48,346 bases of DNA from a virus, in IMG/VR virus record IMGVR_UViG_3300049793_000114, positions 1 to 48,346 of that record. One strand, 5' to 3'. Positions 845 to 48,346 of the stretch are shown here, piece after piece. Each line of letters opens with the position of its first letter. Position 1 is the stretch's first letter. The position numbers and the translations under genes are program-made. The notes beneath the pieces were generated by a model. The model worked only from the letters and a program-made list of their open reading frames with translations, searched no databases and was not told the DNA's origin.

Positions 845-1453
845 TTATTTAACTTCTGGGACACCTTCATACTGCCCGGCAACTTGGTGAACTGCATGGA
901 TTTTAGGCAAACGACCAGAAACACCGTTGAACTGCCTCCAGCGAGCGTACTGGGTCTTGATTGTATGGTCGTTGACACCTTTGACATCTTCGTGACCCTT
1001 TAGCAAGGCAATTGGGCAAACACCGTGGATTTCAGCACTGATTGCATCCGCAGCTGCCCAGATTTTACCGCAGAGGGTGGATGTAGCTGGGCGAGTAACC
1101 TCGTTTTGCTGGATCTTTTCAGCTTTAACTTTGGACGCTTTAGCACTTGCTGGTGTTACTTGAATGCCGAATTTTGCTTCCAGTTCTGCTTTTGCTGCAA
1201 GGAACTCAGCGGACAGAACTGGCGGGGTGCCAACTGCTGGCGCAACCGGTGCGCTGAGTTGTTGCACAGCGAAATCCATCGCATTGCGTGGTGGAGTAGC
1301 ACGGCGTTCAGCGTGGCGTTGTTCCTCACTGATTTTATGTGCTGCTTCATTAGCCAAGGCGTCTTTGCCCAGGACTGCGGCAACTTTTGCTTCTTGCGCT
1401 TTGGTAAGTTTCTTACCTGCGGGCTTGCTGGTAGCTTTTGATGTGGAAGGCAT
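845..1453 (-). CDS. basic Ala/Lys-rich protein with C-terminal HTH-like domain, 202 aa
   Basis: The ATG at 1453 follows AAAGGAA. The N-terminal third is basic and rich in Lys, Ala and Thr and probably disordered; the middle is Pro/Ala-rich. The last ~75 residues form a compact domain starting at CGKIWAAADAIS and containing GVNDHTIKTQYARWRQFNG. This matches, in spacing and key residues (Asn, Thr, Thr-Gln-aromatic, Lys/Arg-Trp), the C-terminus of the 145-residue protein at 2615-3052. Such a pattern suggests a small DNA-binding helical domain. The coding sequence is GC-richer than the intergenic DNA around it. Exact function unknown. Confidence 0.8.
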   Translation of the reverse strand: MPSTSKATSKPAGKKLTKAQEAKVAAVLGKDALANEAAHKISEEQRHAERRATPPRNAMDFAVQQLSAPVAPAVGTPPVLSAEFLAAKAELEAKFGIQVTPASAKASKVKAEKIQQNEVTRPATSTLCGKIWAAADAISAEIHGVCPIALLKGHEDVKGVNDHTIKTQYARWRQFNGVSGRLPKIHAVHQVAGQYEGVPEVK

Positions 1454-4200: not shown

Positions 4201-4246
4201 ATTCTCACCAGCTCACAGTTGTGTGGTTAACCAATAAGGATCCCTT

Positions 4247-17481: not shown

Positions 17482-17515
17482 GTCGTTAAATTTCCAACCA
17501 ATTAAGAGGACTCCT

Positions 17516-18208
17516 ATGGAAGCCATGAATGACAAATTGAATCCAGTTGATGCCACATGTGCTTCCATTAATAGAAGCGCGTCGGTATCAGAAGGTCTAA
17601 ATCCAAAAGGTGTTTACAAAGCTACCTTGATTGGTCCAGTTGAAGAATTCCGCCCACGTCGGATTGCAATTCTTTCTCAATTGGAAACTTTGTTTGACAC
17701 TTACGATCCAACTAACGTAAAATTGCGTCAAGAATTGCAGTTGGAATTAGATTCCATTCCAATGGAAGAAAAGTGGTCAGACGTCGTCTGCAATCTTGTA
17801 ACCACAGTAGGTAAAAACCTGGCATTGGACACAATCCTTGCCGGCTCGAGTTATACCGCTGCTGTGGTTATGGGTCTGAAAGGTACGGGCACCGCACTAG
17901 CTGCTGATACTCAATCTTCGCATGGATCTTGGTCAGAAGTCGGTGGTACGAATGCCCCGGCTTATTCTGGTACTCGGAAAACGCCTGCATGGTCAAGCGC
18001 GTCTGCTGGTAGCAAAGCAACAAGTTCCGCATCATCCTTTACTTTTACTTCTGGTGGTACTGTTGCAGGTTGTTTTTTGAACCTGGCTGGTTCTGCTACG
18101 ATCGACAATACGACCGGCACGCTGTACAGCGCAGGTGATTTCACAGGCGGCAATAAGACTGTAGCTTCCTCTGATGTATTGAACGTTTCTTATACTGGGA
18201 GCATGTAA
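17516..18208 (+). CDS. head-associated structural protein candidate, 230 aa
   Basis: The start follows AGAGGA. The second half has GKNLALDTILAGSSYTAAVV, GTLYSAGDFTGGNKTVASSD and LNVSYTGSM. This arrangement recurs in a phage structural family encoded close to the capsid gene: an Ala/Leu helix, then a beta-sandwich ending in a YSAGxFTGG strand. The N-terminus has LETLFDTYDPTNVKLRQEL. The role is probably in the virion, as a decoration or fibre-related protein. Confidence 0.7.
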   Translation: MEAMNDKLNPVDATCASINRSASVSEGLNPKGVYKATLIGPVEEFRPRRIAILSQLETLFDTYDPTNVKLRQELQLELDSIPMEEKWSDVVCNLVTTVGKNLALDTILAGSSYTAAVVMGLKGTGTALAADTQSSHGSWSEVGGTNAPAYSGTRKTPAWSSASAGSKATSSASSFTFTSGGTVAGCFLNLAGSATIDNTTGTLYSAGDFTGGNKTVASSDVLNVSYTGSM

Positions 18209-18210
18209 TC

Positions 18211-18408
18211 ATGGCGAAGTTTAAAAAAGACGAAGAAGTTGTTCAAATTATGCCTGCACCAATCTCTGGTCGTGTAGCAGGTTTTCATGCAGATCAAACA
18301 ACTGGTGATTTGCAACTTTTAGTTGTTTGGAAAGATGAAAACGGTGATGAACAATCCCGTTACTTCACAGAAGAACAATTGGAATCAAAAGTAGTTCCTG
18401 CTAAATAA
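18211..18408 (+). CDS. small hypothetical protein, 65 aa
   Basis: The ATG is 2 nt after the upstream stop. It is a small beta-barrel-like protein with alternating hydrophobics (EEVVQIMPAPISGRVAGFHA, LQLLVVWKDENGDEQ). The pattern resembles an SH3-like fold. The stop overlaps a strong terminator hairpin. Function unknown. Confidence 0.7.
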   Translation: MAKFKKDEEVVQIMPAPISGRVAGFHADQTTGDLQLLVVWKDENGDEQSRYFTEEQLESKVVPAK

Positions 18409-18433
18409 GAAGACCCGAAAGGGTTTTCTTATT
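18404..18433 (+). terminator. GAAA-loop intrinsic terminator
   Basis: AATAAGAAGACCC (18404-18416), tetraloop GAAA, GGGTTTTCTTATT (18421-18433). A 13-pair stem with one G-U pair, whose 3' arm itself is T-rich, followed by TCTTA. It ends the capsid-proximal unit before the fibre-like cluster. Confidence 0.75.
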
Positions 18434-18455
18434 TCTTACACCATAAGGATTTATA

Positions 18456-19292
18456 ATGGCTATTACAACTGTCAATGGTGTTCTAGCAGGATGCCAACCT
18501 CCTCGTTCGTTTTCTAAATCTGTTACACCGACACTTGTAGCTGGTCGTCCGCATTCTTTATGGTATCTTGCTGGTGCGCCTGGTGCTGGTACAATGGATA
18601 GCACAACGTCCGGCGGCGTTGCCTTAAGTTCAAGTTCTACAAACGTTGCTGGTCAAATTCAGCATACTGATCCTGGTTCAGGGAATGCTTATCTTGCACG
18701 TTTGCAAGCAATGGCGACAATTGCGGGAACTCTAATTCTTTGTGATCGTTTGTGGCATGGTTCGGATATTATCGGCGGTGCTGTAGTTTCAGTTACTTCA
18801 ACTTCTGCGCAGACTATTACTTCTGTACCAACTTGGCCTGCCCGTGATAATGCAGGTAGTACAAATGGTGACGGTGTATTGATGGGTTTGGAGATCTATT
18901 CTGCAACGGGTGCTGGAACTCCAACTGTAACATTAACCTACACTAACCAAGCTAACGTGGCCAGCCATACTGCGACAAACCTTGATTCAGTTGTTGCGTC
19001 AGGTGCAATTGGCGCATTTTATAGATTTGGTTTGCAAGCCGGCGATACTGGCATTCGTGTCCCAACATCTATCCAACTGAGCGCAACTATGTCTTCCGGT
19101 AACTTCGGTTTAGTTGCATATCGTGAATTGGCACGTCTTGAGTTGACAGCTGCAAACGTTCCAAACGCGATTGATGCATTAACATCTGGTTTTCCACAGA
19201 TGTTCAATGGTGTCGTTCCTTTCTTTTTATTTATCCCAAGCACAACAACTGCTTCAAATATTTCAGGCCAGCTTATAGAAACACAGGGGTAA
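18456..19292 (+). CDS. putative virion protein, Ser/Thr/Gly-rich, 278 aa
   Basis: The ATG follows AAGGA. The sequence is beta-rich with PRSFSKSVTPTLVAGRPHSL near the N-terminus, an AHTD/GSGNAYLARLQA-type segment and a C-terminal domain with PNAIDALTSGFPQMFNG. No signal peptide or enzyme motif is seen. It is the first gene of the 7-kb fibre-like group between capsid and connector genes. Likely a head-decoration or fibre-base protein. Confidence 0.7.
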   Translation: MAITTVNGVLAGCQPPRSFSKSVTPTLVAGRPHSLWYLAGAPGAGTMDSTTSGGVALSSSSTNVAGQIQHTDPGSGNAYLARLQAMATIAGTLILCDRLWHGSDIIGGAVVSVTSTSAQTITSVPTWPARDNAGSTNGDGVLMGLEIYSATGAGTPTVTLTYTNQANVASHTATNLDSVVASGAIGAFYRFGLQAGDTGIRVPTSIQLSATMSSGNFGLVAYRELARLELTAANVPNAIDALTSGFPQMFNGVVPFFLFIPSTTTASNISGQLIETQG

Positions 19293-19294
19293 TC

Positions 19295-19648
19295 ATGCAA
19301 CCCCTGCTGACTTTAAATAGCCAGACTGTTCCATCGGGGAATTTTACTTCTCCGATGATTGGTATTCCTGCAATCTACAATTTTGCGGAACTTCGTGCAA
19401 GTAGAGGGGCTTGGCCTGTAGCCGGTGTTACTGTAAGTTTACTTGTTTCATATGATGCAGGATTGACTTTCCAAGTTGCTGCCGGGCCTCTCGTGATTGC
19501 ACCTTTTGTTCCAACTGCAAAACAAGCAAGTGCAACAGATGCAGCAATCGGTTTTGGGTGGAACCAAGAACGAAGAGTTACACACGCAAAAATACAATCT
19601 AATTCACCGCAAAGTTTTGTATCCAACCTTAAGATAATGGCAGGGTAA
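19295..19648 (+). CDS. putative virion protein, 117 aa
   Basis: Starts 2 nt after the upstream stop and ends 1 nt before the next start, so it is co-translated with its neighbours. Beta-rich pattern (VAGVTVSLLVSYDAGLTFQV) with a basic C-terminus. No family recognised; context suggests a structural protein. Confidence 0.7.
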   Translation: MQPLLTLNSQTVPSGNFTSPMIGIPAIYNFAELRASRGAWPVAGVTVSLLVSYDAGLTFQVAAGPLVIAPFVPTAKQASATDAAIGFGWNQERRVTHAKIQSNSPQSFVSNLKIMAG

Positions 19649-19649
19649 A

Positions 19650-21812
19650 ATGACAGCTGCCTATAGATCAGGTTGGTCAAATAGTTCACCGAGCTCATCG
19701 CTTTCAATAGTGACGAGCACGCTTGCGCATGACGTCTTGATTGCTTATGCATTAAACGATACCGGTGCGGGTTCGACTTTCGGTTTTCCAGCAAGTTTCA
19801 ATGCTATTACTCCACTTGCAACATCTTCTGCAGACGGACAAAATTTTTGCGCAGCATATAAAGCGGATGCTTCTGGAAGCGAAGGCACTTTAACTATTAC
19901 CGAAGGTAATGGTATCATTGGTGGCATCATTGCTTGTAGCGGTGTAGACAATGTTACCCCTCTCGATGTTGCAGCAGTTCCAGGATCGTCTGTCGCAAGC
20001 GCAGCATCACCTTCTACTATTGTATTCAATATCACTCCTACAACAAGCGGATGTTTAATTGTTGTCGCAATTGGTGGAGACATCAACGCATCTGCGGATG
20101 TTGCATTTTCTATTGCAACTACCTCTGGAACAACTGGTTCTTGGACACAACGACAAGATCTTTCAAATGGGTTTTTTAACGGGGCAATTTTTACAGCGCT
20201 TCAATCTACAGCTGGTGCTATATCTATCACTGTTACATGCACCTCTGCTGCAGCAAGTATTGACAGAGCGGGAGTCGTGTACGCATTACGCCCAGCGGTA
20301 CAAATCCCGACAATTACTGTACAACCTTCGCAACAATCGACAACGAATGGAACAACTGCGACTTTTTCTCTTACTGCCAATAGCAATGGTGGCACAGGGT
20401 TAAGCTATCAATGGTATTCTGCCCCGATAACCACATTCTTGGCGAACGTACCGGGAACTTGGGCTTCGATTAGTGGTGCTACTTCAAGTTCGTATACGAC
20501 GGCAACATTGACAAGCGCGGATGACGGTAAATGGTTCTATTGTGTGGTCACAGATAGCAATGGTACAGTTAATTCGTCTACCGCACGGTTGTTCTTAAAT
20601 GATACTGCACCAGATGGTATAGGAGCAGAGGGATATCCTGGATTTAGTTCTTGGATATTCCGCTCAAGATTGCGGCAGCATGGTCTAGGATTTGCTTTAA
20701 ATAAGCAGCAGATTACTTACGGTAGAAATCCAGGAATTGAAGAACAGATATTTAAAGTCTGGTTCTTAGGAACAACTACGTATACAGATGGTGTCACAGA
20801 AACTGGTACACTTGCAGATAGCCAAAGCGCGACTTTGACAGGTGGTGGCCCTACTACCTATAACGACAGCGTTAGCGAAGCCGCTACAGCAAGCGAAACG
20901 TCAAGTTCGGTAGCTATTTTTGCTTCTTCAATTACAGAAGCAGCTTCCGCGTCTGATTCTAGAACTGCAATTGCGACATTTGCTTCTACAATCACTGAAG
21001 TCGGAACAGCTTCAGATAGCACATCAGCACAAGCTACTTTTGCCTCCACGGTAGCTGAAGCAGCTAGTGCCTCGGACAGCGAAACAGCACAAGCTGCTTT
21101 TGCATCTTCTATTTCAGAAGCTGTGACTGTTTCTGACGCACAGACATCTATTGCCTCTTTTGTCTCAACGATAAACGAAAGTGTCACTTTGGCGGAATCC
21201 AATTCTGCATCACTAAGTACAACATCTACTATTAGTGAATCCGCAACACTCGCAGACTCTGTATCTGGCGGAATTACATTTGCAGACTCTGTCATTGAAA
21301 CGGCAACATTAGCGGAAAGCACTATCGGAATAGCGGGCGTAGGTGTGGTCATAACTGAAACAGCAACAGCTAGCGACTCTACCAGTGCATTGCTTAGCTT
21401 TGCATCCTTTATTACTGAATCTGCAACTGCAACAGATTCTATTAGTGCTTTAGCGTCCTTTAGTGTTATTATTGCAGAGACCGTTATTTTACAAGATTCT
21501 ATAACTGCAAATTCAATCTTTAGTGCAGCGATTTCTGAACTTGCGAATTTAAATGAAGATATTTCAGCTGCTCAAGAATATTCTGTAAGTGTTTCTGAAT
21601 CCGTAAATTTAGATGACTTATACGGCGTTTATTCTGAAGTGTCAATTTCAGAAAGTGTAGATTTAATAGATATTTGTAGTGCGATCCTTGTTATCGCACT
21701 CCCAGATTTGCAATACCCTTTGGCTGGCCAGCGGCAAACTTATTCTTTGAACGGTAGACGTCAAGAATATCCATTGGAAGGTCAAAGACAAGATTATCCT
21801 CTTGAGGATTAG
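19650..21812 (+). CDS. large fibre/adhesin-like protein with Ig-like domain and repeats, 720 aa
   Basis: Residues ~1-210 form a beta-sandwich with IIGGIIACSGVDNVTPLDVA, similar to modules found in phage and surface proteins. Residues ~217-318 are an Ig-like domain (PTITVQPSQQSTTNGTTATF, YQWYSA, ADDGKWFYCVVTDSNGT). From ~385 to ~675 runs a series of ~20-residue repeats around F[AS]S.ITEAASASDS. The last ~35 residues repeat YPLxGQRQ about four times. Such proteins form stalks or fibres on the virion surface. The codon composition is AT-rich. Function as adhesin or depolymerase partner is inferred. Confidence 0.75.
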   Translation: MTAAYRSGWSNSSPSSSLSIVTSTLAHDVLIAYALNDTGAGSTFGFPASFNAITPLATSSADGQNFCAAYKADASGSEGTLTITEGNGIIGGIIACSGVDNVTPLDVAAVPGSSVASAASPSTIVFNITPTTSGCLIVVAIGGDINASADVAFSIATTSGTTGSWTQRQDLSNGFFNGAIFTALQSTAGAISITVTCTSAAASIDRAGVVYALRPAVQIPTITVQPSQQSTTNGTTATFSLTANSNGGTGLSYQWYSAPITTFLANVPGTWASISGATSSSYTTATLTSADDGKWFYCVVTDSNGTVNSSTARLFLNDTAPDGIGAEGYPGFSSWIFRSRLRQHGLGFALNKQQITYGRNPGIEEQIFKVWFLGTTTYTDGVTETGTLADSQSATLTGGGPTTYNDSVSEAATASETSSSVAIFASSITEAASASDSRTAIATFASTITEVGTASDSTSAQATFASTVAEAASASDSETAQAAFASSISEAVTVSDAQTSIASFVSTINESVTLAESNSASLSTTSTISESATLADSVSGGITFADSVIETATLAESTIGIAGVGVVITETATASDSTSALLSFASFITESATATDSISALASFSVIIAETVILQDSITANSIFSAAISELANLNEDISAAQEYSVSVSESVNLDDLYGVYSEVSISESVDLIDICSAILVIALPDLQYPLAGQRQTYSLNGRRQEYPLEGQRQDYPLED

Positions 21813-21814
21813 AC

Positions 21815-23707
21815 ATGCCTTCAAAAAATGTAGTTGCTAAAACTTGGTACAACTCATTAAACTTTGACGATCTTCGTTGGAGTACCTATGCGCTCGGCAA
21901 TAGACCTTCCGGTTATGTGTCTACCCCCACATTAATTGACACAGATATTAATTCTGGATCTTTAACAAACGGTGAAAATAATAAAGGTGCCTACCTCACA
22001 CTGTATGGGTATTCTTTTGGAACTAAGTCTAACCTTGGTACATCTCTTGGAGCGCGTGTATATATGCGCGACCCTCTTGGGGATAACACATGGCACGAGG
22101 TTGATAACTATCGATTTTTAGATCAAAGTCCTACGTATGAAATAAATCAATCTTTGATGATTCGTTGTCAAATTGGTGCCCTTGGTGGTTCTCAAACTGC
22201 TGGTCGATTATTAGATATTAAAGTAAATGTTGCAGGCACAGACACAAATGTTCTAATTGGTCAATTTATGATTCAAACTGGTCATTTCTGGTTTGTATCA
22301 TTGAATGGTAATGACTCAACAGGTGTTCGCGATGATATTAATCATCCGTACCGATACGTTCAAAATTGGGTTAATGGCTCTGTAGCAATGGCATCCCCAA
22401 GTATTTTCCAAGCAATTGGTGGTATCCAGCCTGGCGATACAATTGTCATTCGCGGAGACGAAGGCACATGGTCAGATACTAAAGGCTTCAACGATACTGG
22501 ATTCTATCCGTGGCTTCGTTTTGCGCGTGGGGACGCCGGCTTTACTCCTGGGTTTGGTGGTGGTACTGCGCCGACTGGTGCAGCTGGGCATGGTTACATC
22601 CACATTACAGCATACCCTGCAGTTGGCGCAAACGAAGATGTTCATTATGCTGGACCAAATGGTGCCATCATGGGAACGCTTGGCAGCTTCGCGAACGCCG
22701 GTTGGGGTAAATATGTCTCTGTTTCCAATCTTCGTATGGAAACAACGTCAGGCTCTACCCGAGATGCGGGAATGGTTAATTTCCAAAATGGCGCAGATTA
22801 TTGGCGCGTATATGGGAATTATGCTGGGCCATGGGCGGTTCAGTCGACTGTTACAAACTCGTCCGCAATCGGTGGGCAAGGCAACTATATGAAAGTGTTT
22901 TTCAACAAGGTGAGTAGCATCAGCGGCTACCTTGCAGATCAACAAAATCATGGAATGTACTTTGGTGGACAAAATAGCGGATCTGCTAATAATGCTTGTC
23001 AGAATTGTGAAGTAGCATATAACTGGATCGTCGATTCTGTATGCGGCTCTGGTATTCAATTTTTCTGGCAGAATGGTGTTTCTGGTACACCTTCTAGTGT
23101 GTTCGTAGGAAATAGGGTACACCATAATTTTGTTGACACTACATTGAAATATGGTATCAACATGGCAGACGGTAATGTTTCTGCAGATATTTATGATAAT
23201 ATTGTCATAAATACTGGACTTGTTGCATTACGTTTTGTTGGCCCGACAGGCGCAACCTTTGCAATGAATTGGGCATATAACACAATATGGAATTGGAATA
23301 CAGTTAATGGTGCTCAGACTGCAGCGTTCTTAAACGACGGCTTCGCTGATGCAGGTTCTTGCAAAATTAATCATAACATTTTTGCAATGCCTGCTGGCCA
23401 TACTCAAACAGTATCTTGGTATGGTAATAACGGTGCAGGGGATGGCAATCAAACTATGGATGAAAATCTTTATTATGATTACGCTGGTACTTTAACAGGT
23501 TCAGCAGCTAAAGATGCACATCCGATAACTACGAGCCCCCTATTTACAAATCCAGCTCTTAATAATTTCACTTGCCAAACTGGAGGTGCTGGGATTAACG
23601 CTGTAACTAGAACAGAAGCTATTGCTGTTTTAACAGATTTTTATGGAATAGCTAAGCCGATTTCTTCTGCTAAAGATATTGGTGCTTGCGAAGGGATTGG
23701 AACATGA
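21815..23707 (+). CDS. right-handed beta-helix protein, polysaccharide depolymerase candidate, 630 aa
   Basis: GAGG lies upstream of the ATG. The middle part carries parallel beta-helix turns: CEVAYNWIVDSVCGSGIQFF, VFVGNRVHHNFVDTTLKYGI, ADIYDNIVINTG. Before them is a PGDTIVIRGDEGTW strand often seen at the start of pectate-lyase-like helices. The C-terminus ends with KDIGACEG, as in secreted beta-helix proteins. This is the typical architecture of phage tailspikes that cut capsule or LPS. Catalytic acids cannot be fixed by eye. Confidence 0.75.
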   Translation: MPSKNVVAKTWYNSLNFDDLRWSTYALGNRPSGYVSTPTLIDTDINSGSLTNGENNKGAYLTLYGYSFGTKSNLGTSLGARVYMRDPLGDNTWHEVDNYRFLDQSPTYEINQSLMIRCQIGALGGSQTAGRLLDIKVNVAGTDTNVLIGQFMIQTGHFWFVSLNGNDSTGVRDDINHPYRYVQNWVNGSVAMASPSIFQAIGGIQPGDTIVIRGDEGTWSDTKGFNDTGFYPWLRFARGDAGFTPGFGGGTAPTGAAGHGYIHITAYPAVGANEDVHYAGPNGAIMGTLGSFANAGWGKYVSVSNLRMETTSGSTRDAGMVNFQNGADYWRVYGNYAGPWAVQSTVTNSSAIGGQGNYMKVFFNKVSSISGYLADQQNHGMYFGGQNSGSANNACQNCEVAYNWIVDSVCGSGIQFFWQNGVSGTPSSVFVGNRVHHNFVDTTLKYGINMADGNVSADIYDNIVINTGLVALRFVGPTGATFAMNWAYNTIWNWNTVNGAQTAAFLNDGFADAGSCKINHNIFAMPAGHTQTVSWYGNNGAGDGNQTMDENLYYDYAGTLTGSAAKDAHPITTSPLFTNPALNNFTCQTGGAGINAVTRTEAIAVLTDFYGIAKPISSAKDIGACEGIGT

Positions 23708-25530
23708 CCATATTACAAGTTGGTACAAGAACGGACAGTGCTGTAGTCACGGATGTGACAAACAGCGTCACAAGAACTGGTGTTAAGTCTGCCAGTTTCT
23801 TATCACTTGTCGTTGTTTCAAGCGTAGTGGCCCCTAGCGGAGTACCGGACGGATGGGATCACGATTTTACTGTTGCTTGTACTGATGCACCTGGATACAC
23901 CACCAATTTCTATAGCAAGACGAACGCTATAGCGGGCGACCATACCGCTGTCATAAACTACCCTAGTTCTTCCGTTATTCGCATGACAATAACAGAGTGG
24001 AAGGGCATGTTTACTGTAACTAAGGATAAGACATCTGGTTACAGCTTTTACAATAACGTCTATAATACCGGATCAACAGGGACACTAACTACAGCTGTTC
24101 AGTTGGCCATTGCGGCCTTACAGTTCGCAGCATCTTCGGGGATTAGTATTACGATTCCAACAGGTGGTTGGGTAGATCAAGGAACTATCTCTAGCCCTAT
24201 TGAAAGTTCTGTGATCTCATTGATCACTTCCGCAACAACCGCTCTTAATCCAACTTGGACTGCTGCCGGGGGTAATCAAGAACTTGCAAATGGTATTGTT
24301 ACGTATATTCCAGGAACAGCTCCGACTGCTGCTACGCTAAGTTCGCCTGGACGCACCACGATCTTGTCAACAAGCGTAGTTGGAACATTTACTTCTGATA
24401 CTGCCGGCGGAACCGCATTTGCCGCTGTGTCTACATCTGGCACACCGCCATCCGCTGCTCAAATCGATGCTGGTACTGGTGGCGGAATTGTCGCTGTAGG
24501 TACTGCTACAGCTTTGTCGGGGGCGAATGCTGTAACCACAACAGGGTTGACTCCGTCTACTACTTACTATGTCCATATGATGCAGGACAATGGTTCGCAG
24601 TCTAATATTGTTAGTTCGACCTCTTTTACAACGCTACCGCCTGCACCAAACATCACAGGTGTAAGTTCCATGAACCCGACTAAGGGTTCCAGCTTTACTG
24701 TAACAGGTACAGATTTTGGGTCAACCCAATCTACAGGTTATTTAAAAGTCGGTGGAACAACACTGACTATCACCTCTTGGTCTTCTACCTCTATAACAGG
24801 TACGATGGATCCAGGTTTGAATAAATATGGTATCACTGTAGACGTAATTGTTGCTAGTTCATCTGTTGGAGAAGGCCCAGCATTTGCGATAACGACTTTG
24901 CAACCGCCTGTGGGTTCGTCGTTTATAAATCTAGTCACTCCATATGCAATTAGCACAGACCGTATCACTGCTTCAGCCGATGCGGCATCGGGCGATCAAT
25001 ATGAATACGTAAATTTCTCAAATCTGTTTACTGTCTATGCAGATCTAACTTGGTCTGCAGCTGAATCGGTCTCGTCGTCAAATGGTAGGTTATGGACTCC
25101 AGGAAGTGGTTGGGGTTCTTATGCTACACAAACTATTGATACGGGGGGCTATGTCCCACCAGCAGACACGATTGTGATCGGCGGGCATAAAAATACCGCA
25201 AGGATGGAACTACCAGGCTTTAATGTCCCAGCTTACTCGGTTGTGTGGTCAGATATTTTGAATAGTGAAAAAGGCGCTCCAGTTTCTTTCGTATCTATTA
25301 CAACTTTGTCCATCCAAGTAACGGGCGTATTTGGTTCAGGTGGCAGCATAAAAATGGAAGGTTCTACTGACGGCATTACGTACACAGATATGGTAGACGG
25401 TTCAAGTAATCCTTTAATTTTTACCTCTGCTACAACATTAGTGTCCACCGATGTCAGAACCTATATGCGTCCTAAAGTAACAGCTGGTGATGGTAATACA
25501 AATCTTAAAGTAAAATTAATAGCTTCATAA
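23704..25530 (+). CDS. fibre-like protein with TIG/IPT and FN3-like domains, 608 aa
   Basis: The start overlaps the upstream stop by ATGA. The N-terminal ~190 residues are a beta-sandwich like that of the 720-residue protein (VQLAIAALQFAASSG, WTAAGGNQELANGIVTY). Residues ~205-310 look like FN3 (TGLTPSTTYYVHMMQDNGSQ), and ~315-395 like an IPT/TIG domain (ITGVSSMNPTKGSSFTVTGT, DFGSTQ). The rest is beta-rich. It is likely an adhesin-type structural protein on the virion. Confidence 0.75.
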   Translation: MTILQVGTRTDSAVVTDVTNSVTRTGVKSASFLSLVVVSSVVAPSGVPDGWDHDFTVACTDAPGYTTNFYSKTNAIAGDHTAVINYPSSSVIRMTITEWKGMFTVTKDKTSGYSFYNNVYNTGSTGTLTTAVQLAIAALQFAASSGISITIPTGGWVDQGTISSPIESSVISLITSATTALNPTWTAAGGNQELANGIVTYIPGTAPTAATLSSPGRTTILSTSVVGTFTSDTAGGTAFAAVSTSGTPPSAAQIDAGTGGGIVAVGTATALSGANAVTTTGLTPSTTYYVHMMQDNGSQSNIVSSTSFTTLPPAPNITGVSSMNPTKGSSFTVTGTDFGSTQSTGYLKVGGTTLTITSWSSTSITGTMDPGLNKYGITVDVIVASSSVGEGPAFAITTLQPPVGSSFINLVTPYAISTDRITASADAASGDQYEYVNFSNLFTVYADLTWSAAESVSSSNGRLWTPGSGWGSYATQTIDTGGYVPPADTIVIGGHKNTARMELPGFNVPAYSVVWSDILNSEKGAPVSFVSITTLSIQVTGVFGSGGSIKMEGSTDGITYTDMVDGSSNPLIFTSATTLVSTDVRTYMRPKVTAGDGNTNLKVKLIAS

Positions 25531-25539
25531 GGAGATGTC

Positions 25540-26088
25540 ATGAGTTTAATCGTTGAAACTGGAACTGGTGCATCAGATAGTGAATCCTATCTTTCTGTTG
25601 TTGACGCAGATACTTACCATTTGAATCGCGGCAATACCTTGTGGGCGACTATAACCACACTTGAAAAAGAGCAAGCTTTGCGGCGTGCCACTGACTACAT
25701 GATGGGCAAATATCGTCTACGTTGGCTTGGTCGAAGAGTCCTTATTACACAAGCATTAGATTGGCCTCGTGTGGGTGTTGTATTAGAAGACTTCGGCGGT
25801 AGTCAAGGGCGTGCCGGAATGGGTTCTTATGGGCTCTTCCAAGTCCCATATACCATTGTCCCATTGGAAGTAAAAAACGCTTGCGCAGAGCTTGCAATGC
25901 GTGCTACTATGGGCCCATTAGTGGATGATGTATCACAAAATGTAACGCAGGAGACAATTGGCCCGATTACAGTTAAATATGATACTACTTCTCCACAGTA
26001 TGTAAGATACCTGCAGATTGATCAAATGATTCGTGTTTATTTATCAGCTGGTGGTAATGTCAATATGGTTAAACTTGGTAGATCTTAA
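25540..26088 (+). CDS. head-tail adaptor, DnaT-like family, 182 aa
   Basis: The opening MSLIVETGTGASDSESYLSV followed by VVDADTYHLNRGN, then ALRRATDYMMGKYRLRW and ITQALDWPRVGV, matches a widespread phage family labelled DnaT-like. It sits in the position of the first neck (connector) protein. GGAGA lies upstream. The likely role is binding the portal ring and starting the head-tail connector. The DnaT label is a name only. Confidence 0.8.
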   Translation: MSLIVETGTGASDSESYLSVVDADTYHLNRGNTLWATITTLEKEQALRRATDYMMGKYRLRWLGRRVLITQALDWPRVGVVLEDFGGSQGRAGMGSYGLFQVPYTIVPLEVKNACAELAMRATMGPLVDDVSQNVTQETIGPITVKYDTTSPQYVRYLQIDQMIRVYLSAGGNVNMVKLGRS

Positions 26089-35743: not shown

Positions 35744-37828
35744 ATGACCACAACTATCACAGCGCTGCCACCAGCACCGAGCACTTCTTCTCCTTCTACA
35801 TTTGCTGCTTTAGCTGATGCTTTTATTGCTGCGTTGCCGGGGCTAGTTACCGAAATCAACGCGCTTGCTGCCGAATTGATAACTGCCTCTGCTGCTGCTG
35901 TAGCTGCTGCCGTCTCTGCAACAGCTTCTGCTACTGCTGCAGCTGCGTCTGCTAATTCGGCGTTAAATGCCCCCGGAACTAGCGCGACTAGTACAACAAC
36001 ACTGACACTCGGATTAGGTGTACAGTCTTTGACAATTCAGACAGGCAAACTTTATCTGCCTGGAATGACCGTCAAAATTGCTTCAACTGCCGGCCCGACC
36101 AACTGGATGGCTGGCGACATTACCGCCTATAATTCCTCTACAGGTCTAATGAGTGTGACCACAACAGTGGTTCAGGGTTCCGGCTCTGCGTCTTCCTGGA
36201 ACGTATTTGGTAGCTCTATACCTTGCACTTTAGCTGGATTAGGCGGCGCTGCGTCTGGTGCCAATGTTGATATTGTCTCTATTAACGGGATAACAATTAC
36301 CAAAGGTGGAACACCTGTTGCTACAAATACAGGCCTTGGAACATCTGCGCTGAATGCAAATACGACTGGTTCGGATAATGTAGCCGTCGGCTACCATGCT
36401 CTAACCGCGAATACCACAGGCACATCTGGTGTGGCTATTGGTAGCGGAGCACTTGCAGGAAATACAACAGGCTCCGCAAATATCGCAGTAGGAGCAGCAG
36501 CGCTGACAGTGAATACAACTGGTGGCTCAAACATTGCAATCGGGAATAGTGCAATGAATGGAAATACTACTGGTGGTAGCAATACTGCAATTGGTGTGAG
36601 TGCAATGCTTGCAAATACGACGGGCGGAAGCAACGTTGCTGTCGGCTATCATGCAATGGCTGCAAATACAACTGCGAATAACAACTCTGCTATAGGCCAT
36701 TCTGCTCTTGCGGCTGCTACTACTGGAGGCAATAACGTTGCTTTAGGTTATCAATCATTAAAATCATTGACAACTTCCCAATATAACATTGGTGTCGGTG
36801 TGAATGCATTACAAAACGTAACTACAGGTTCCTACAATATTGGTATCGGTGCTGGTGCCGGTGAAACAAATACGACTTCAAACTTCAATATTTCTGTAGG
36901 TTATGGTGCTCTGGAGGCGGGGACAGGTGCTGCAAACGTTGCATTAGGTCACCTGGCTTTAGCAACCTCCACAACAGCTGCAAATAATACTGCAGTCGGA
37001 ACTAATGCAATGAATTTAACCACGACCGGCGGAAATAATGCTGCCCTTGGTTATTATGCTCTCTCCGCCAATACTACTGGTAATTTGAATGTCGCGATTG
37101 GATACAATACAGGTTTTGCAATTACATCTGCTGTTAAGACTACTGTAATTGGGGCGGAAGCTTTACAATCCTTGACAGCAGGTGGTTATAATACGGTTGT
37201 CGGTTGGAGAGCCGCATTTGCTGCAACTGGATCACAAAATGCCATTTTTGGAGCTGAAGCATTTATTGCTAACACTTCTGGTAATCAATGTACTGCTATC
37301 GGGCCTGGCGCACTATACGCCAGCACTACAGGCACTTCAAATACCGCACTTGGGTTCAATTCTGGCGCAAACATCACTACCGGAACAAATAATACTTGCA
37401 TTGGACTCAATGCTTATGCTTCTTCTGCAACTGTATCCAATGAATTCACCCTTGGTGATGCAAGTGTAACCGTACTTCGTTCGCAAAATACATCGATTAC
37501 TGCGCTATCTGATGCACGTGACAAGACAGATGTAACGGATCTTAAATTTGGTCTTGAGTTTATCACATCTTTGCGTCCAGTTGCATTTACTTGGAATATG
37601 CGTGACGGCGTTAAAGTTGGTGTTAAATCAAGCGGTTTTATCGCACAAGAACTCAAAGCTTCTCAAGAAGCATTTGGCGCGTCGGACACTTTGAATCTGG
37701 TATATGAGTCCAATCCTGAAAAATTGGAAGCTACCTATGGTCACTTAATTCCAGTTCTTGTCCAGGCAATTAAAGATTTGAAAGCAGAATTAGACGATTT
37801 AAAACGAGATGGACTGAAAATTGTTTAA
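35744..37828 (+). CDS. tail fibre with NTTG repeats and C-terminal S74 chaperone domain, 694 aa
   Basis: N-terminal ~70 residues are an Ala-rich helix, followed by a small beta domain. Residues ~200-560 are 15-16-residue repeats around A[LM]xANTTGGSNxAIG, like trimeric autotransporter head repeats, which form a left-handed beta roll. The last ~110 residues are an intramolecular chaperone (Peptidase_S74): LSDARDKTDVTDLKFGLEFI, FTWNMRDG, GFIAQEL and a helical end. The Ser-Lys pair in SDARDK is the self-cleavage dyad candidate. The protein likely trimerises and binds the host. Confidence 0.88.
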   Translation: MTTTITALPPAPSTSSPSTFAALADAFIAALPGLVTEINALAAELITASAAAVAAAVSATASATAAAASANSALNAPGTSATSTTTLTLGLGVQSLTIQTGKLYLPGMTVKIASTAGPTNWMAGDITAYNSSTGLMSVTTTVVQGSGSASSWNVFGSSIPCTLAGLGGAASGANVDIVSINGITITKGGTPVATNTGLGTSALNANTTGSDNVAVGYHALTANTTGTSGVAIGSGALAGNTTGSANIAVGAAALTVNTTGGSNIAIGNSAMNGNTTGGSNTAIGVSAMLANTTGGSNVAVGYHAMAANTTANNNSAIGHSALAAATTGGNNVALGYQSLKSLTTSQYNIGVGVNALQNVTTGSYNIGIGAGAGETNTTSNFNISVGYGALEAGTGAANVALGHLALATSTTAANNTAVGTNAMNLTTTGGNNAALGYYALSANTTGNLNVAIGYNTGFAITSAVKTTVIGAEALQSLTAGGYNTVVGWRAAFAATGSQNAIFGAEAFIANTSGNQCTAIGPGALYASTTGTSNTALGFNSGANITTGTNNTCIGLNAYASSATVSNEFTLGDASVTVLRSQNTSITALSDARDKTDVTDLKFGLEFITSLRPVAFTWNMRDGVKVGVKSSGFIAQELKASQEAFGASDTLNLVYESNPEKLEATYGHLIPVLVQAIKDLKAELDDLKRDGLKIV

Positions 37829-39629: not shown

Positions 39630-40055
39630 GTGACAACGATTATAGCTACTAAGTCTGGAATGTACGCAGATAAAAGAATCACAAGCGGTGCAATCCATAG
39701 AACCACAAAACTATTTAGGATCAAAGAATCCATAGTAGGAGTGTGTGGTGAAATAGAACAAGGCATTCGTTTTATTGAATGGCTTAAATATCCAAGCGAA
39801 CGTCCAATTTTTGCAGAAGCAAATTCATTCAGTGCTCTCGAATTAACACCAAAAGGTAAAATCTTATGGTGGGGAACAGCACTGGTTCCAATGCCGGTAG
39901 AAGAAGAATTTTATGGCATTGGGTCTGGTGCAGCTTATGCTCTTGGCGCAATGTGCATGGGTGCTTCTCCTAAGAAAGCGATCTTAATAGCTTCAAGGTG
40001 GGATGAATCAACAGGAGACGAAATACAAGCAATGACGCTGAGGAGCAAATCATGA
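39630..40055 (+). CDS. proteasome-like Ntn hydrolase (HslV-like), copy 2, GTG start
   Basis: A GTG at 39630 follows AGAAGGAG. The N-terminus MTTIIATKSGMYADKRITSG aligns with the other copy (7724-8197): Thr2 after Met removal as nucleophile, Asp14 and Lys27 as partners, then YGIGSGAAYALGAM and a helix SPKKAILIA. At 141 residues it is shorter than copy 1. It lies after the lysis terminator, with its stop overlapping the metallophosphoesterase start (ATGA). The substrate is unknown. Confidence 0.8.
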   Translation: MTTIIATKSGMYADKRITSGAIHRTTKLFRIKESIVGVCGEIEQGIRFIEWLKYPSERPIFAEANSFSALELTPKGKILWWGTALVPMPVEEEFYGIGSGAAYALGAMCMGASPKKAILIASRWDESTGDEIQAMTLRSKS

Positions 40056-41590: not shown

Positions 41591-42223
41591 TTAGCTCGTA
41601 CTACCAGCACCCCCAATACCCCCAAAGGTAAAAAAGCGCATAGTGTAAGGATCACTTTGTTCCGCTTGTTTATCACACATGTATGAATAGTCTGCAAGCA
41701 CCGCAAGCATTTCATTAAAAACCAAGATACCTAAGGCCAACTGCTTTTCTTTGTCTTCTTGTTCTCTGGAATCTGCGTTTAACATGTCTGCAAGAATATT
41801 TGTCATGGAAGAAGTTGAAATTCTATTGACAATTTCATTATTCCTTTCAACATGTTTACTTATTCCAACCCGTGCTTGCGCGACTTGTCTTATTCGATCT
41901 TGAACAGAGCTCTTCATTGTTTTTATAAGGTCTGTATGTTTGAAATCGATCTGTTGCAAAGAAGCAAATAATAAATTCGCAACCTCAGAAATAGCACGAT
42001 CTCGAACTGTTAACTTTTTAGGATCAACAGAACCAGTTGTGTCGTATTCTATTCTCTTTTCAGAATCAGATAGAATAGAGTAAGCATTTAGAATACGTTG
42101 AAATTCTTCTTTGTCACCACCAGCTTTATCCGGATGGCATTTTTGTGCCTTCTTGCGATAAGCAGATCGTATTTTATCAGATGAAGCGTCTTTATTTAAC
42201 CCTAGTATTTCATACAGATTCAT
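41591..42223 (-). CDS. J-domain (DnaJ-like) co-chaperone, 210 aa
   Basis: Residues 1-65 form a J domain with YEILGLNKDASSDKIRSAYR and the HPD motif in KCHPDKAGGDKEEF (His30-Asp32), which stimulates DnaK ATPase. The remaining ~145 residues are helical and not recognised; there is no Gly/Phe or zinc region, so it is a J-domain fusion rather than a full DnaJ. The start overlaps the polymerase stop (ATGA), implying a role near replication, perhaps recruiting host DnaK. Confidence 0.88.
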   Translation of the reverse strand: MNLYEILGLNKDASSDKIRSAYRKKAQKCHPDKAGGDKEEFQRILNAYSILSDSEKRIEYDTTGSVDPKKLTVRDRAISEVANLLFASLQQIDFKHTDLIKTMKSSVQDRIRQVAQARVGISKHVERNNEIVNRISTSSMTNILADMLNADSREQEDKEKQLALGILVFNEMLAVLADYSYMCDKQAEQSDPYTMRFFTFGGIGGAGSTS

Positions 42224-44247
42224 TTTAAGTCCTTGGTTGGTTTGCTATAGCCAATATCTTCTAGTATTCGATAAGACTCTTGGATGTAATATTCATAGTC
42301 TATGTCTTCTGGAAATTCTTTTGGCAGATTCATGCACGGCCGACAATTATCCGTCAGCGCTACTTTATTACCTGTTTTCGCATATATGATTTCACCTTCA
42401 ACATTTAGAGCATGATACCAACGAATCAACTTACCGAGGTAGAGATCATCTTTAATTGCCCCACCAGACACCGCCCGCATTGTTGTGAATTTACGGATAT
42501 CTTTACAGGCTTGGATTGTAATAGCAGGAGGCGTTTGTGTGGCCATCATCTCTTTAACTGCTTCAATACATACTTCATTCACAGCATTTTTCTTCGGAGC
42601 TGTTTCACCATAGGCACCTTTAAGTTTAAATAGTTTTCCTTTTTGAGGAACTTCATAGATGGCAATATAGTTATTAATATCCTTACTATACGTAGCCTTA
42701 TAGCGAATCTCTTCTGTAGATAAACCTGTGTCTTTTTCCCACCCTTTAACAATAGAATTAAATAATTGTTCTTTTGAACGTAGACATTTAACGACAATGC
42801 CATCTGTATTCACAGATGTCACTTCAATGCCGTTTAGTTCGAATCTTTCTACAAGCATTAAAATTGATAGCTGGCCTGTTACCGTAACTTGAATTAACAA
42901 GTTTGGAGCATACATGATTGACCACATGCTACCTAGTTTTCCGAACGTGCCGTTTGCGACAATCTTCAGACATTCTGCTGTAATGATCTCCCCGGCTTTT
43001 TTAGCACTAATCCTTTCAACTACAATGCTATTGTAAACTAAAATGAAATCTTTCCCCAAATTTTCTGGGGTGAGACCTGCGTTTAAAATCAAATTAGGAT
43101 AGTAAGAAGTAACGTCTGTATCTGCAATGAAGTAGTCATCATCTGCTATATGAGCAATACTTTTTTCTTGACTGTGTAGACCGCCAATACCGAATTTATA
43201 CTTCCCGTTTGCAATATTAATAACAAGATCGTCCATTTCCGGTGGCATAATAACGTTACCGTGATTTGGATCAACGAAGAAGGTAGCATTCTGAACCAAT
43301 TTCAATATATGGTTCATTAATGCAGATTCATACTTAATGAATCTTGGTGTCTGATATCTATACCAAGTACCAATCGGGAGTTTCGTTCTGTTAAGGAATT
43401 TACGTCCAGTCTTACGTTTGATCTCTGCAGAGATAATAGCTTCTGCCATTTGTGCATCAGAATGTGAGCGCAGGTCAATTTTATATTTCTTACCCTGTTC
43501 TTCCCTTAATTGAATCTGTGGTAGTTTATCATCGTAGAGTATCTTTGTATTATCCAGATCGTTGATATTATACCAACGAAGAATAATAATTTGGTCGTCT
43601 GTTAATATAGTACCAGGCTTGAACGGTAAATCCTGCAAACGTGGTGCATGTAGGCGCCCTGCGCATACTTTCAAACCGGGGGCAAGCGCTGTCAATTCAA
43701 TAAGGTCAATCTGGTCTATTTCAAGACGCTTAGTTTTGTACTTTTTGTAGACGTCTTGAGATTGTAACTGCTGCTCAATGATCATTTGAGTAGCGTCCCA
43801 CATATCTTCGCAATCGTACCCCGCCAGTGCTAGTGTGGTTATCGGAAAGTCATACTTACGACCATTGAAATTAACAATACAAAAGTTCTCAAGAACCCAT
43901 TTAAATTTTGCGATGTCAAACCCCGCATTAGCATACGCAAAAGGATCTAAATATAATTCGAAGTAAATGACTTTAGCACTTTGGATAGATTTAAATCCAA
44001 ACATACAATAGTTTGGATAAACCTCGATATCGTATAGCAGGCGCTCTTTATTAATAGATGCTTGCCACAATTCCATATCTGTAAACAGATCTGGTTTGTA
44101 AGCACGAGCTTCTTCTAAGAAAGGAAGGTAATCCGGAGATTCCCAGAAACGTTGCGGGATAGGTCTTCTTATTTTTTCTTTTTTAGGAGGTTTAACTTTT
44201 GCATGGTCCTGCCAAAAGAAGCCGATAGCGTCGCTACGTTTGCTCAT
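42220..44247 (-). CDS. family B-like DNA polymerase, 675 aa
   Basis: All 3'-5' exonuclease motifs are visible: exo I YDIEVYPN (Asp73, Glu75), exo II NFNGRKYDFP (Asp133), exo III YNINDLDNTK (Asp230/232). Polymerase motifs: A DTDVTSYYPNLI (~376-387), B KIVANGTFGKLGS (~428-440), C VNTDGIVVK (Asp482). The order and size match the short phage family B polymerases. Motif C has NTDG in place of canonical DTDS. AAGGA lies upstream of the ATG. It replicates the phage DNA, probably with the clamp at 45054-46016. Confidence 0.93.
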   Translation of the reverse strand: MSKRSDAIGFFWQDHAKVKPPKKEKIRRPIPQRFWESPDYLPFLEEARAYKPDLFTDMELWQASINKERLLYDIEVYPNYCMFGFKSIQSAKVIYFELYLDPFAYANAGFDIAKFKWVLENFCIVNFNGRKYDFPITTLALAGYDCEDMWDATQMIIEQQLQSQDVYKKYKTKRLEIDQIDLIELTALAPGLKVCAGRLHAPRLQDLPFKPGTILTDDQIIILRWYNINDLDNTKILYDDKLPQIQLREEQGKKYKIDLRSHSDAQMAEAIISAEIKRKTGRKFLNRTKLPIGTWYRYQTPRFIKYESALMNHILKLVQNATFFVDPNHGNVIMPPEMDDLVINIANGKYKFGIGGLHSQEKSIAHIADDDYFIADTDVTSYYPNLILNAGLTPENLGKDFILVYNSIVVERISAKKAGEIITAECLKIVANGTFGKLGSMWSIMYAPNLLIQVTVTGQLSILMLVERFELNGIEVTSVNTDGIVVKCLRSKEQLFNSIVKGWEKDTGLSTEEIRYKATYSKDINNYIAIYEVPQKGKLFKLKGAYGETAPKKNAVNEVCIEAVKEMMATQTPPAITIQACKDIRKFTTMRAVSGGAIKDDLYLGKLIRWYHALNVEGEIIYAKTGNKVALTDNCRPCMNLPKEFPEDIDYEYYIQESYRILEDIGYSKPTKDLK

Positions 44248-44885: not shown

Positions 44886-45057
44886 TTGGCACCTCTCTTC
44901 TTTGAAGAACTCCATGCCCATAAATTGGGTCGTTATTTTTGATATAACAATCATTGCAAGAAATAAGATTCATTGACCCATAATCTCGGAGTTTTACATC
45001 AATCTTAACTGACTTGCAACAGGGACAACGTTTAATAATTGGACGTTTAGTTTTCAT
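44869..45057 (-). CDS. small zinc-ribbon protein, 62 aa
   Basis: The start overlaps the clamp stop by ATGA. Two Cys pairs, CPCC (residues ~11-14) and CNDC (~34-37), predict a zinc ribbon. The layout resembles Lar-type restriction-alleviation proteins, but the match is weak and the family is diverse. Lying between the clamp and small helical genes, it may be a DNA- or host-binding accessory. Confidence 0.7.
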   Translation of the reverse strand: MKTKRPIIKRCPCCKSVKIDVKLRDYGSMNLISCNDCYIKNNDPIYGHGVLQRREVPNVDGS

Positions 45058-46016
45058 TTTTGACGCATACCTATGATAGCACCGCGTAAGCGGTCGTTTT
45101 GAAAGAGACAAGGGCCCGGATAACCGCTCCAATCAATTGTCTTTGCAATGCCTTTTAAAAGTTCCAGCATCTGGATATTGTAACGACCTTCTTCACCAAT
45201 CAGATTAGGTAAGTCAAAAGAAGCGCCTTCGTTTTCGTCGTCATGTGTGGCTATCCGTTGTTGCTGGAAAATAACAGTCCCAAATTTGTCAACAAATGGT
45301 TTAATAACATCTAGACCAGTAAACAATTCTTCATCAATTGGTGTTTGGGCAGAAGGTTTATTTAAAATCTTATCGAACGACGGCCAAGCTTCTGAATCAT
45401 AAAGCTGTGTCCTTAACCAGCGTTCTTCGCTGTAATGAAAGGTAATGCTATTCTGTGCGAATTGCGCGAATAACGGAGCTTCATTGATACGAAGCATTTC
45501 CTTCACTGCTGGCAAAGGGATTGTAACCACATTCGGAAAATCCACTCCGAGCCAGTATTGTGCCAACATCACATTATTCGTAGAAAACAGACTTTGGTCT
45601 TTTACCAAAACCCCACTTGCCCAACGCCGTGATGCATCGTCGCCGATAAATGGTGCGACTTGTTTAAGTCCAGTTAGCAATGCTTGCCCGTCAAAATTGA
45701 CAATGTTACCTTCAGGCATCGGGTGTACACTATCTTCTTGAACGCAATCGACAAAAGCTTTGAACTTACCTGCCTTAACAGATAATCGACCTGCGGGGGT
45801 CAACGATAACTGAACAGTTTCATCGCAATTTGCAATGGCTTTAATGAGAGTATCTGCTTTGGGTTTGCAAGCGATATCGAATGGGATAGGTGAGCAAAGT
45901 GCCATTGTCCCATTAAACCCGCGCACTGTACCGTGCTCGATTACAAAATGTGTAAGAGCAGGCAAGAAGTCTTTCTTTGCTACGCTACCTTGGACAAACT
46001 TAAGAGACTTAAGCAT
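45054..46016 (-). CDS. DNA polymerase sliding clamp, DnaN-like, 320 aa
   Basis: The start is the ATG at 46016, with GGGAG 5 nt upstream; an earlier frame from 46034 lacks a site. The N-terminal domain pattern VAKKDFLPALTHFVIEHGTV and RGFNGTMALCSPI matches the beta-clamp opening (a helix, then the turn to strands), and similar beta-alpha-beta folds follow at GQALLTGLKQVAPFIGD and FTGLDVIKPFVDKFG. Length is shorter than bacterial DnaN (~366), usual for phage clamps. It would tether the family B polymerase on DNA. No clamp loader is seen. Confidence 0.78.
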   Translation of the reverse strand: MLKSLKFVQGSVAKKDFLPALTHFVIEHGTVRGFNGTMALCSPIPFDIACKPKADTLIKAIANCDETVQLSLTPAGRLSVKAGKFKAFVDCVQEDSVHPMPEGNIVNFDGQALLTGLKQVAPFIGDDASRRWASGVLVKDQSLFSTNNVMLAQYWLGVDFPNVVTIPLPAVKEMLRINEAPLFAQFAQNSITFHYSEERWLRTQLYDSEAWPSFDKILNKPSAQTPIDEELFTGLDVIKPFVDKFGTVIFQQQRIATHDDENEGASFDLPNLIGEEGRYNIQMLELLKGIAKTIDWSGYPGPCLFQNDRLRGAIIGMRQK

Positions 46017-46299
46017 ACATACTCCCATAGTCACACCCTGTTACTAATGCTGAATCTTTCATTCCCCGACTTTTTAATCCAAGTGATTCGGACTCACCAT
46101 GACAGCATCCAGAATCAATAGAAAGAGAAGACAAGAAGCCTGCAGAGATTGGTTTGATATCCGCATCTTTGAATTGTTGCGACAGTTTTAGCTGTAGCAT
46201 GTCAGCGACCTCGGAATGTACCAATAAGTCTGGAAAGATGATCGGGATTTCCATCTCTACACCGCTGCGCATTATTACTTCTATCACAACATATTTCAT
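46009..46299 (-). CDS. hypothetical phage protein, 96 aa
   Basis: The start follows GGAGG and overlaps the upstream stop by TAATG. The sequence has an N-terminal strand-rich part (YVVIEVIMRSGVEMEIPIIF), a helical middle, and GCCHGESESLGLKSRGMKDS near the end. This C-terminal pattern recurs in phage proteins near replication genes, function unknown. It overlaps the clamp gene by 8 nt. Confidence 0.7.
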   Translation of the reverse strand: MKYVVIEVIMRSGVEMEIPIIFPDLLVHSEVADMLQLKLSQQFKDADIKPISAGFLSSLSIDSGCCHGESESLGLKSRGMKDSALVTGCDYGSMYA

Positions 46300-46788: not shown

Positions 46789-47721
46789 TTAGAATAGTTG
46801 TTGTGCTTTGTGTACTTCAAGAATACCGTCACACTCAGCAATATGTCTATTTATAATTTCGTTTAATTCCATGTAACCAAGCGTATTATAGCATGCACGC
46901 GATTCGTATACTGTGGATAGACGCTCAAAATTAAAACCTTTTTTGTCGAGCATTGCTTCTACGCTTGCACGTTCAATATCGGTTAAGGTAGATAGATGCC
47001 TTCCCGCATCATGCCGAGCAGGCGAGTCCTTACTTACTGCTAACGGGCCATGCTCACTAGTAAAGATACTTCCGAACGCTGCAGCTTGAATCCATGAAGA
47101 TGAGTCGACACTATACCAAGGATAACGTTTCATTAGCGAAGGAGCTGTCATGCCGAATGCGTGAACTTTGAGCTTCGCTTTGCCAGTGTGGTCAAGCATA
47201 TGTTTTTCCCACATGCGGTCTAACCACACTTCTTGGTCTTTCTGATTCTTGCCTACCAGACCTCCGATAGTTATATAGTCGTACCGCTCTACGTACCAAT
47301 CTAGGTAGCGAGGGTCTTCTCCAAAGTGAAAGCAGGGCAGGGGTTTTGCCCCTTGCGACTCCATGTAAAGCTGATTTTGCCAAGTTTTTAAGGGATCGCC
47401 AATACCGTCTAGCACAGACGCCATTACCGCTCCATCTTCAACACGTAATATATCTCGATTTCGAATAATGTAAGAGCAATACTCATCAATATTAATACTA
47501 ACACCAAGTGAGTGCGCAGAGAAAGCCCCTGAATCCAAGAAGACAGTCGCTTTTTGATCCCGCATTGTATCGACAAACCGCTGTGAGTTAATGTAGTGAT
47601 ACGAATCAAGCTCGTGCGGTATGCGATCAATAATTTGTTGTTCATTGTCTGTAAGTTTCACGTAGCGATTCTGGGTTTTATGATAACCGTTTGTCCAAAC
47701 GGCTGCTAGATAGAGATGCAT
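46789..47721 (-). CDS. TGT/DpdA-like base transglycosylase, 310 aa
   Basis: The residue pattern is that of the tRNA-guanine transglycosylase fold: TVFLDSGAFSAHSLG with Asp63 in place of the DSGGFQ motif, VLDGIGDP, CFHFGED (131-136), IGGLVG, KVHAFGMTAPSL (~185-196), and WYSVDSSSW with Asp206 as likely nucleophile. The C-terminal zinc cluster of bacterial Tgt is missing. Phage proteins of this type, called DpdA, exchange guanine in DNA for 7-deazaguanines and can protect DNA from host nucleases. No preQ0 synthesis genes are present, so any substrate would come from the host. The assignment is by motif only. Confidence 0.72.
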   Translation of the reverse strand: MHLYLAAVWTNGYHKTQNRYVKLTDNEQQIIDRIPHELDSYHYINSQRFVDTMRDQKATVFLDSGAFSAHSLGVSINIDEYCSYIIRNRDILRVEDGAVMASVLDGIGDPLKTWQNQLYMESQGAKPLPCFHFGEDPRYLDWYVERYDYITIGGLVGKNQKDQEVWLDRMWEKHMLDHTGKAKLKVHAFGMTAPSLMKRYPWYSVDSSSWIQAAAFGSIFTSEHGPLAVSKDSPARHDAGRHLSTLTDIERASVEAMLDKKGFNFERLSTVYESRACYNTLGYMELNEIINRHIAECDGILEVHKAQQLF

Positions 47722-48215
47722 TTATTGTATTCCTCTAAGTCAACAAAATGACGTTTAGCTTTATTATCACCTTCTGTCAAATACTGTAAATTATCTAATA
47801 CATGTAAGCCAGAAACAAACTCACCTTGCAGCGGAAGCTCATGGTCAACTTGCATTCCTTCCGGACATAAAAGATAGAATTGTAGGATAATATCCTTTTC
47901 ACACCAAGGAGGCACACGCTGTAATCTTTTTGCTCTGATTAAAGTTTGTTCTGCCCTAATCTTATTACTGTTTCGTGCATAGTACGCTCTCTGTATTGCC
48001 CGCGCACCATCTCTATTCGCTTCGCGCCATTCACAGGTTTGTTTATTTTTCTGTTGCGAATGCTTAGCATAACACTTTTTGGTATGCTCGCGCTGGCATG
48101 TTGCACAACCACCTGTCACATACCGAACGTCGACGTGACCATATTTACATGGACGACCAGTAAAGTAATGTTTCAGACCTTTAGCTTTTGCAGCTTTACA
48201 AGTAATAATATCCAT
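47706..48215 (-). CDS. HNH endonuclease-like protein, 169 aa
   Basis: The N-terminal half has a possible zinc site (PCKYGH, GCATCQ). The C-terminal part has VDHELPLQGEFVSGLHVLDN followed by LQYLT, the phage HNH pattern with His in DHELPL. I prefer the ATG at 48215, with AGGTGG upstream, to a GTG at 48224. The ribosome site lies in the arm of a hairpin at 48222-48237. The stop overlaps the transglycosylase start by 16 nt. It may be a packaging-associated, homing or defence-related nuclease. Confidence 0.82.
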   Translation of the reverse strand: MDIITCKAAKAKGLKHYFTGRPCKYGHVDVRYVTGGCATCQREHTKKCYAKHSQQKNKQTCEWREANRDGARAIQRAYYARNSNKIRAEQTLIRAKRLQRVPPWCEKDIILQFYLLCPEGMQVDHELPLQGEFVSGLHVLDNLQYLTEGDNKAKRHFVDLEEYNKCISI

Positions 48216-48221
48216 ATTTGC

Positions 48222-48237
48222 CACCTGTTTGCAGGTG
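48222..48237 (-). promoter_or_regulatory. hairpin over the ribosome site of the HNH gene
   Basis: CACCTG (48222-48227) and CAGGTG (48232-48237) are complementary with a 4-nt loop. On the minus strand the 3' arm, CAGGTG, contains the Shine-Dalgarno AGGTGG of the HNH gene, so the hairpin could hold back its translation. Confidence 0.4.
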
Positions 48238-48306
48238 CTAGGTTAAGTTAAAAGCGGGTACTGTATAGCACAATACCCCTTAAAGTTTGCGCAGCTTGTA
48301 GCGCGT

Positions 48307-48346
48307 TTAATCAGCTACAGCTTTTTCTTTCCCGAATTCTGGTAAC
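48307..48346 (-). CDS. small hypothetical protein, C-terminal part, open at window edge
   Basis: On the minus strand an open frame enters from the window end and stops with TAA at 48309-48307. The visible end reads LPEFGKEKAVAD. If the ends join, it continues the frame at 1-68, giving EELKLPEFGKEKAVAD in one protein. Function unknown. Confidence 0.4.
   Translation of the reverse strand, partial: LPEFGKEKAVAD

Follow-up and report, generated by a model that had tools for sequence, protein, structure and literature searches.

The window analysed here is an entire IMG/VR record of 48,346 bases, linear and with neither end repeats nor terminal overlap. The gene of interest, dpdA, lies about 0.6 kb from the right edge of this window, where the sequence upstream of it breaks off. 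The relevant features are listed below, with matches to G002, a 71,069-base contig carrying the relative at locus L005, whose DpdA is 83% identical to that of the window.

845..1453, minus strand: FtrA-domain-like protein (second copy), bordering the missing segment on the left when the map is drawn as a circle; matches G002 2206-2652.
42220..44247, minus strand: DNA polymerase (family B-like), a downstream neighbour of dpdA as in Queuovirinae; PHROG 1252, E 4e-193.
45054..46034, minus strand: DNA polymerase processivity factor (clamp), a downstream neighbour as in Queuovirinae; PHROG 947, E 1e-74; 53% identical to HD01 and 69% to G002.
46789..47721, minus strand: dpdA, putative DNA 7-deazaguanine transglycosylase (phage DpdA, 310 aa); PHROG 887, about 60% identical to the DpdA of CAjan, Seurat and HD01, predicted TGT fold.
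47706..48224, minus strand: HNH/endonuclease VII-like protein of 172 aa, immediately upstream of dpdA, whose start it overlaps; PHROG 1035 (endonuclease VII), E 5e-18.
48225..48346, no strand: right contig edge of the linear record, with no end repeat; in the relatives, folE-queD-queC-queE lie shortly beyond.

The top phage matches of the DNA polymerase are Queuovirinae-type phages, at about 48% identity, and the best reading of the source is an uncultured phage related to Queuovirinae. The polymerase gene is adjoined by a gene for a DnaJ-domain protein (41591-42223) that is kept in G002 (37189-37809). Elsewhere in the window, two HslV-family peptidase-like proteins (PHROG 1040; 7724-8197 and 39630-40055) are 31% identical to each other, and a protein of 512 aa (13313-14851) that contains a GDSL lipase/acylhydrolase domain is encoded between the portal and scaffold genes. 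No counterpart of the latter was found in G002. Several large ORFs in a row separate the capsid from the head-tail adaptor genes (17441-25530) and show little similarity to the relatives; weak Ig-like and DUF5123 matches and one TIG domain were detected there, and the products are perhaps decoration or adhesion proteins.

The dpdA ORF starts with ATG and its 310 codons are far beyond chance expectation: 20 shuffled versions of the window gave stop-free runs of 187 codons at most. The encoded protein carries the motifs DSGAF (residues 63-67), IGGLVG (152-157) and WYSVDSSSW (202-210, containing Asp206). Asp63 and Asp206 are unchanged across all 19 aligned sequences. A weak alignment would place Asp63 opposite the aspartate of the DSGGF motif of E. 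coli Tgt, and the motif surrounding Asp206 suggests a catalytic role for this residue. No CxCxxC...H zinc site is present in DpdA, whose only cysteines (positions 82, 130, 277 and 297) are all isolated. Four histidines, His42, His132, His187 and His242, are invariant in the numbering of the window protein, which is not the published numbering; a conserved histidine at position 196 of the latter is a published trait of phage DpdA, and DpdA2 is devoid of that residue.

The protein matches PHROG 887 (queuine tRNA-ribosyltransferase) with an E value of 2e-79. A tblastn search against phage genomes retrieved 232 records; the top matches, about 60% identical along 94-100% of the protein, come mainly from Queuovirinae (CAjan, Seurat, slur01), with Acinetobacter phage HD01 in addition. 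A structure prediction that used the window protein together with 18 relatives reached a pLDDT of 83.7. The best 50 Foldseek matches of this moderate-confidence model in the PDB are tRNA-guanine transglycosylases without exception (E 6.5e-06 to 1e-04, TM about 0.5), and its top viral matches include named phage queuine tRNA-ribosyltransferases. The Pfam TGT model (PF01702) has no match in the window and found TGT in 14 of 14 control genomes. Pfam, NCBIfam and PADLOC searches of DpdA gave nothing meaningful, and no TGT was matched in the PDB by sequence with either the protein or its profile. Since the Pfam TGT and PDB sequence profiles miss the protein, its membership in the TGT superfamily rests on PHROGs, on close named relatives and on the predicted structure. 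By sequence and predicted fold, the window protein is thus a TGT-fold base transglycosylase, a phage DpdA of the CAjan/9g type, which is a well-described family. The first-pass annotation had described a TGT-type reading frame at 46789-47721 with these three motifs and no zinc cluster, and had placed the product among zinc-free, DpdA-like members of the TGT superfamily; all of this is borne out. Of the two comparisons with Tgt that it had proposed, the structural one yielded the Foldseek matches, and in the profile comparison DpdA aligned with E. coli Tgt in the DSGGF region, with low probability, and nowhere beyond it.

A TGT fold is also what a viral enzyme acting on tRNA instead of DNA would display, and many records do annotate such proteins as queuine tRNA-ribosyltransferase. 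However, the zinc site is absent, the Pfam model that performed well on the control genomes does not recognise the protein, and DNA modification in CAjan depends on a homologue about 60% identical to it (PMC6884629). Activity on tRNA is therefore extremely unlikely.

Profile searches detected neither folE nor queC in the 48,346-base window, and the FolE, QueD, QueC and QueE proteins of CAjan and HD01 had no match in it when used as tblastn queries. The helicase, Cas4 exonuclease, Sak4, SSB and primase of known Queuovirinae had no match in the window either; in the relatives, genes of these types are carried beyond the preQ0 genes. In CAjan and HD01 the gene order is queE-queC-queD-folE-dpdA-clamp-polymerase, with the preQ0 genes directly upstream of dpdA. 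Because the window dpdA is so close to the edge, the preQ0 genes are expected just outside the window. The last 38 bases, used in an attempt to extend the contig, matched no other viral contig exactly, and a near-identity search of the right half of the window (23349-48346) against phages returned nothing.

A scan of viral contigs identified 22 loci with a DpdA 57-83% identical to that of the window. One of them, L019, was left out of the counts of relatives as the DpdA of its record is 100% identical to that of CAjan, leaving 21 IMG/VR loci. In profile searches FolE was found in 20 of these 21 and QueC in 19. The gaps concern contigs that end early: L016, without folE, has 1.1 kb upstream of dpdA, and L004 and L024, without queC, have 1.9 and 0.7 kb, respectively. 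By tblastn, QueE was detected in each locus whose sequence upstream of dpdA exceeds 2 kb. Wherever the contig of a relative reaches far enough upstream, folE, queD, queC and queE are thus present. L017 was considered as a relative devoid of queC and rejected, as it encodes a divergent QueC-like protein of 244 aa (3587-4321), of which the Pfam QueC model covers residues 67-188 only; this gene sits between folE and dpdA, which is not its usual place. In the main genera, equal numbers of phage records have DpdA and QueE: Escherichia (40/40), Pseudomonas (31/31) and Vibrio (23/23). The endonuclease VII-like protein has a 68% identical counterpart at the same position in L012. As L012 has folE and queC upstream with this gene in place, the latter is no substitute for the preQ0 pathway.

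The extent of the missing sequence can be estimated from G002, whose gene order, read in reverse, is colinear with that of the window. The order common to both is FtrA-like protein, thymidylate synthase, terminase, portal, capsid, tail, DnaJ-like protein, polymerase, clamp and DpdA. The ORFs of at least 180 aa in G002 3475-30392 have no counterpart in the window, except for a single cross-match between an FtrA-like ORF (25492-26061) and the FtrA paralogue of the window. The window FtrA-like protein (845..1453) is closer to G002 2206-2652 than to the queE-adjacent G002 copy (25792-26013). The G002 segment 3475-30392 contains genes for a Cas4-type exonuclease and a helicase, together with queE, queC, queD and folE. 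The gene map is circular, since proteins encoded at 2.5 kb and 4.3 kb of the window have their matches at opposite ends of G002. One contiguous block of roughly 27 kb, as estimated from G002, would then be missing at the join 48346/1. The genome would therefore measure about 75 kb, in agreement with the contigs of five relatives (69-74 kb). As a whole linear record without end repeats, the 48,346-base sequence is most likely a fragment of the phage genome.

The record could conversely be the true genome of a phage, deleted or minimal, from which the whole replication and preQ0 block has been lost, since a single contig holds intact genes from terminase to tail along with the polymerase, the clamp and dpdA. 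An autonomous phage is unlikely to lose helicase and primase yet keep polymerase and clamp, however, and both the size of the five relatives' contigs and the lack of terminal overlap in the record argue against it. The probability of such a genome is close to negligible.

The first-pass annotation had also reported that folE, queD, queE and queC are absent. This holds for the window and is not confirmed for the phage as such, given the likely fragmentary state of the record. In a phage truly without preQ0 genes, DpdA would use a host 7-deazaguanine (preQ0, ADG or similar) from the queuosine pathway. The failure to find preQ0 genes in the window is consistent with this, and phages with dpdA only do exist: 76 were listed in 2019, and traces of dADG were found in Salmonella phage 7-11 (PMC6884629). 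Like the window, these phages (group 3) show a DpdA-like protein and no visible preQ0 genes, but according to that study their genomes encode DpdA and none of the pathway, whereas the absence in the window most likely results from truncation. That class comprises complete genomes with dpdA and no preQ0 gene; the present record is linear and the block of about 27 kb is absent from it. The contig also lacks homologues of the helicase, Cas4, SSB and primase, as expected of a fragment, and all testable relatives (57-83% identity) have the pathway. Furthermore, the window DpdA is near those of pathway-encoding phages, while the proteins of dpdA-only phages form separate clusters in the published similarity network (PMC6884629). 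It is thus very unlikely that the phage draws on a host base, and just as unlikely that its missing block, unlike that of all relatives, is truly devoid of preQ0 genes and leaves a CAjan-type DpdA dependent on host 7-deazaguanine. Even a dpdA-only state would not be new, since such phages are already on record (PMC6884629). The earlier proposal that the enzyme needs host intermediates, an RNA target or another base is accordingly not upheld, as the contig ends where all testable relatives carry preQ0 genes. Nor does the modification chemistry of this phage stand as an open question: in view of the upstream gene order of the relatives, the apparent puzzle arises from the position of the contig end.

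The preferred reading, held at a probability of about 93%, is that a DpdA of the CAjan/9g type is encoded on a truncated contig, by a phage that makes preQ0 itself and inserts the base into its own DNA. Starting from GTP, phage FolE, QueD, QueE and QueC would synthesise the base, and their genes would lie in the missing 27 kb or so. In the double-stranded DNA of the phage itself, DpdA would replace guanine with the free 7-deazaguanine base by a two-step exchange of the TGT type, in which Asp206 would act as the nucleophile and Asp63 as the second catalytic aspartate. The modified DNA would no longer be cut by host restriction enzymes. The insertion of 7-deazaguanine into DNA is proposed for the window DpdA by analogy with CAjan, for which it was demonstrated: dPreQ0 replaces about 32% of G in CAjan DNA, and deletion of dpdA abolished both the modification and the restriction resistance (PMC6884629). 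As for the identity of the base, QueC in G002, L006 and L012 is a plain 7-cyano-7-deazaguanine synthase, and the open frame around G002 queC revealed no amidotransferase domain, as in CAjan (neighbouring ORFs were searched in part). QueC is thus a stand-alone protein of the CAjan kind in the relatives examined, and the best guess from sequence is therefore that the inserted base is most likely preQ0 (dPreQ0 in DNA).

The system itself is already known, and the phage is a further carrier of the preQ0-DpdA type, which is conserved in a group of uncultured Queuovirinae-related phage contigs, five of them of 69-74 kb. The window DpdA has its predicted fold and the DSG[GA]F and GGL motifs in common with bacterial and archaeal Tgt (Zymomonas Tgt, Pyrococcus ArcTGT 1j2b), but is only about 9-14% identical to them in structural matches, has no zinc site and is unrecognised by the Pfam TGT model. 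The relative at L005 shares, besides its closely similar DpdA, colinear structural and replication genes, and has queE, queC, queD and folE upstream of its dpdA. Unlike the window, it has no endonuclease gene beside dpdA and carries between dpdA and the clamp an RtcB (RNA ligase) gene (L005 10939-12144) that was not found in the window. Compared with CAjan (Seuratvirus, Queuovirinae; FolE-QueD-QueC-QueE), the upstream preQ0 region of the window lies past the contig edge, an HNH/endonuclease VII-like gene is present upstream of dpdA and the polymerase is just about 48% identical. The DpdA proteins of the two phages are nevertheless about 60% identical and contain the same motifs, and their genes have the same direction and the same clamp and polymerase genes downstream.
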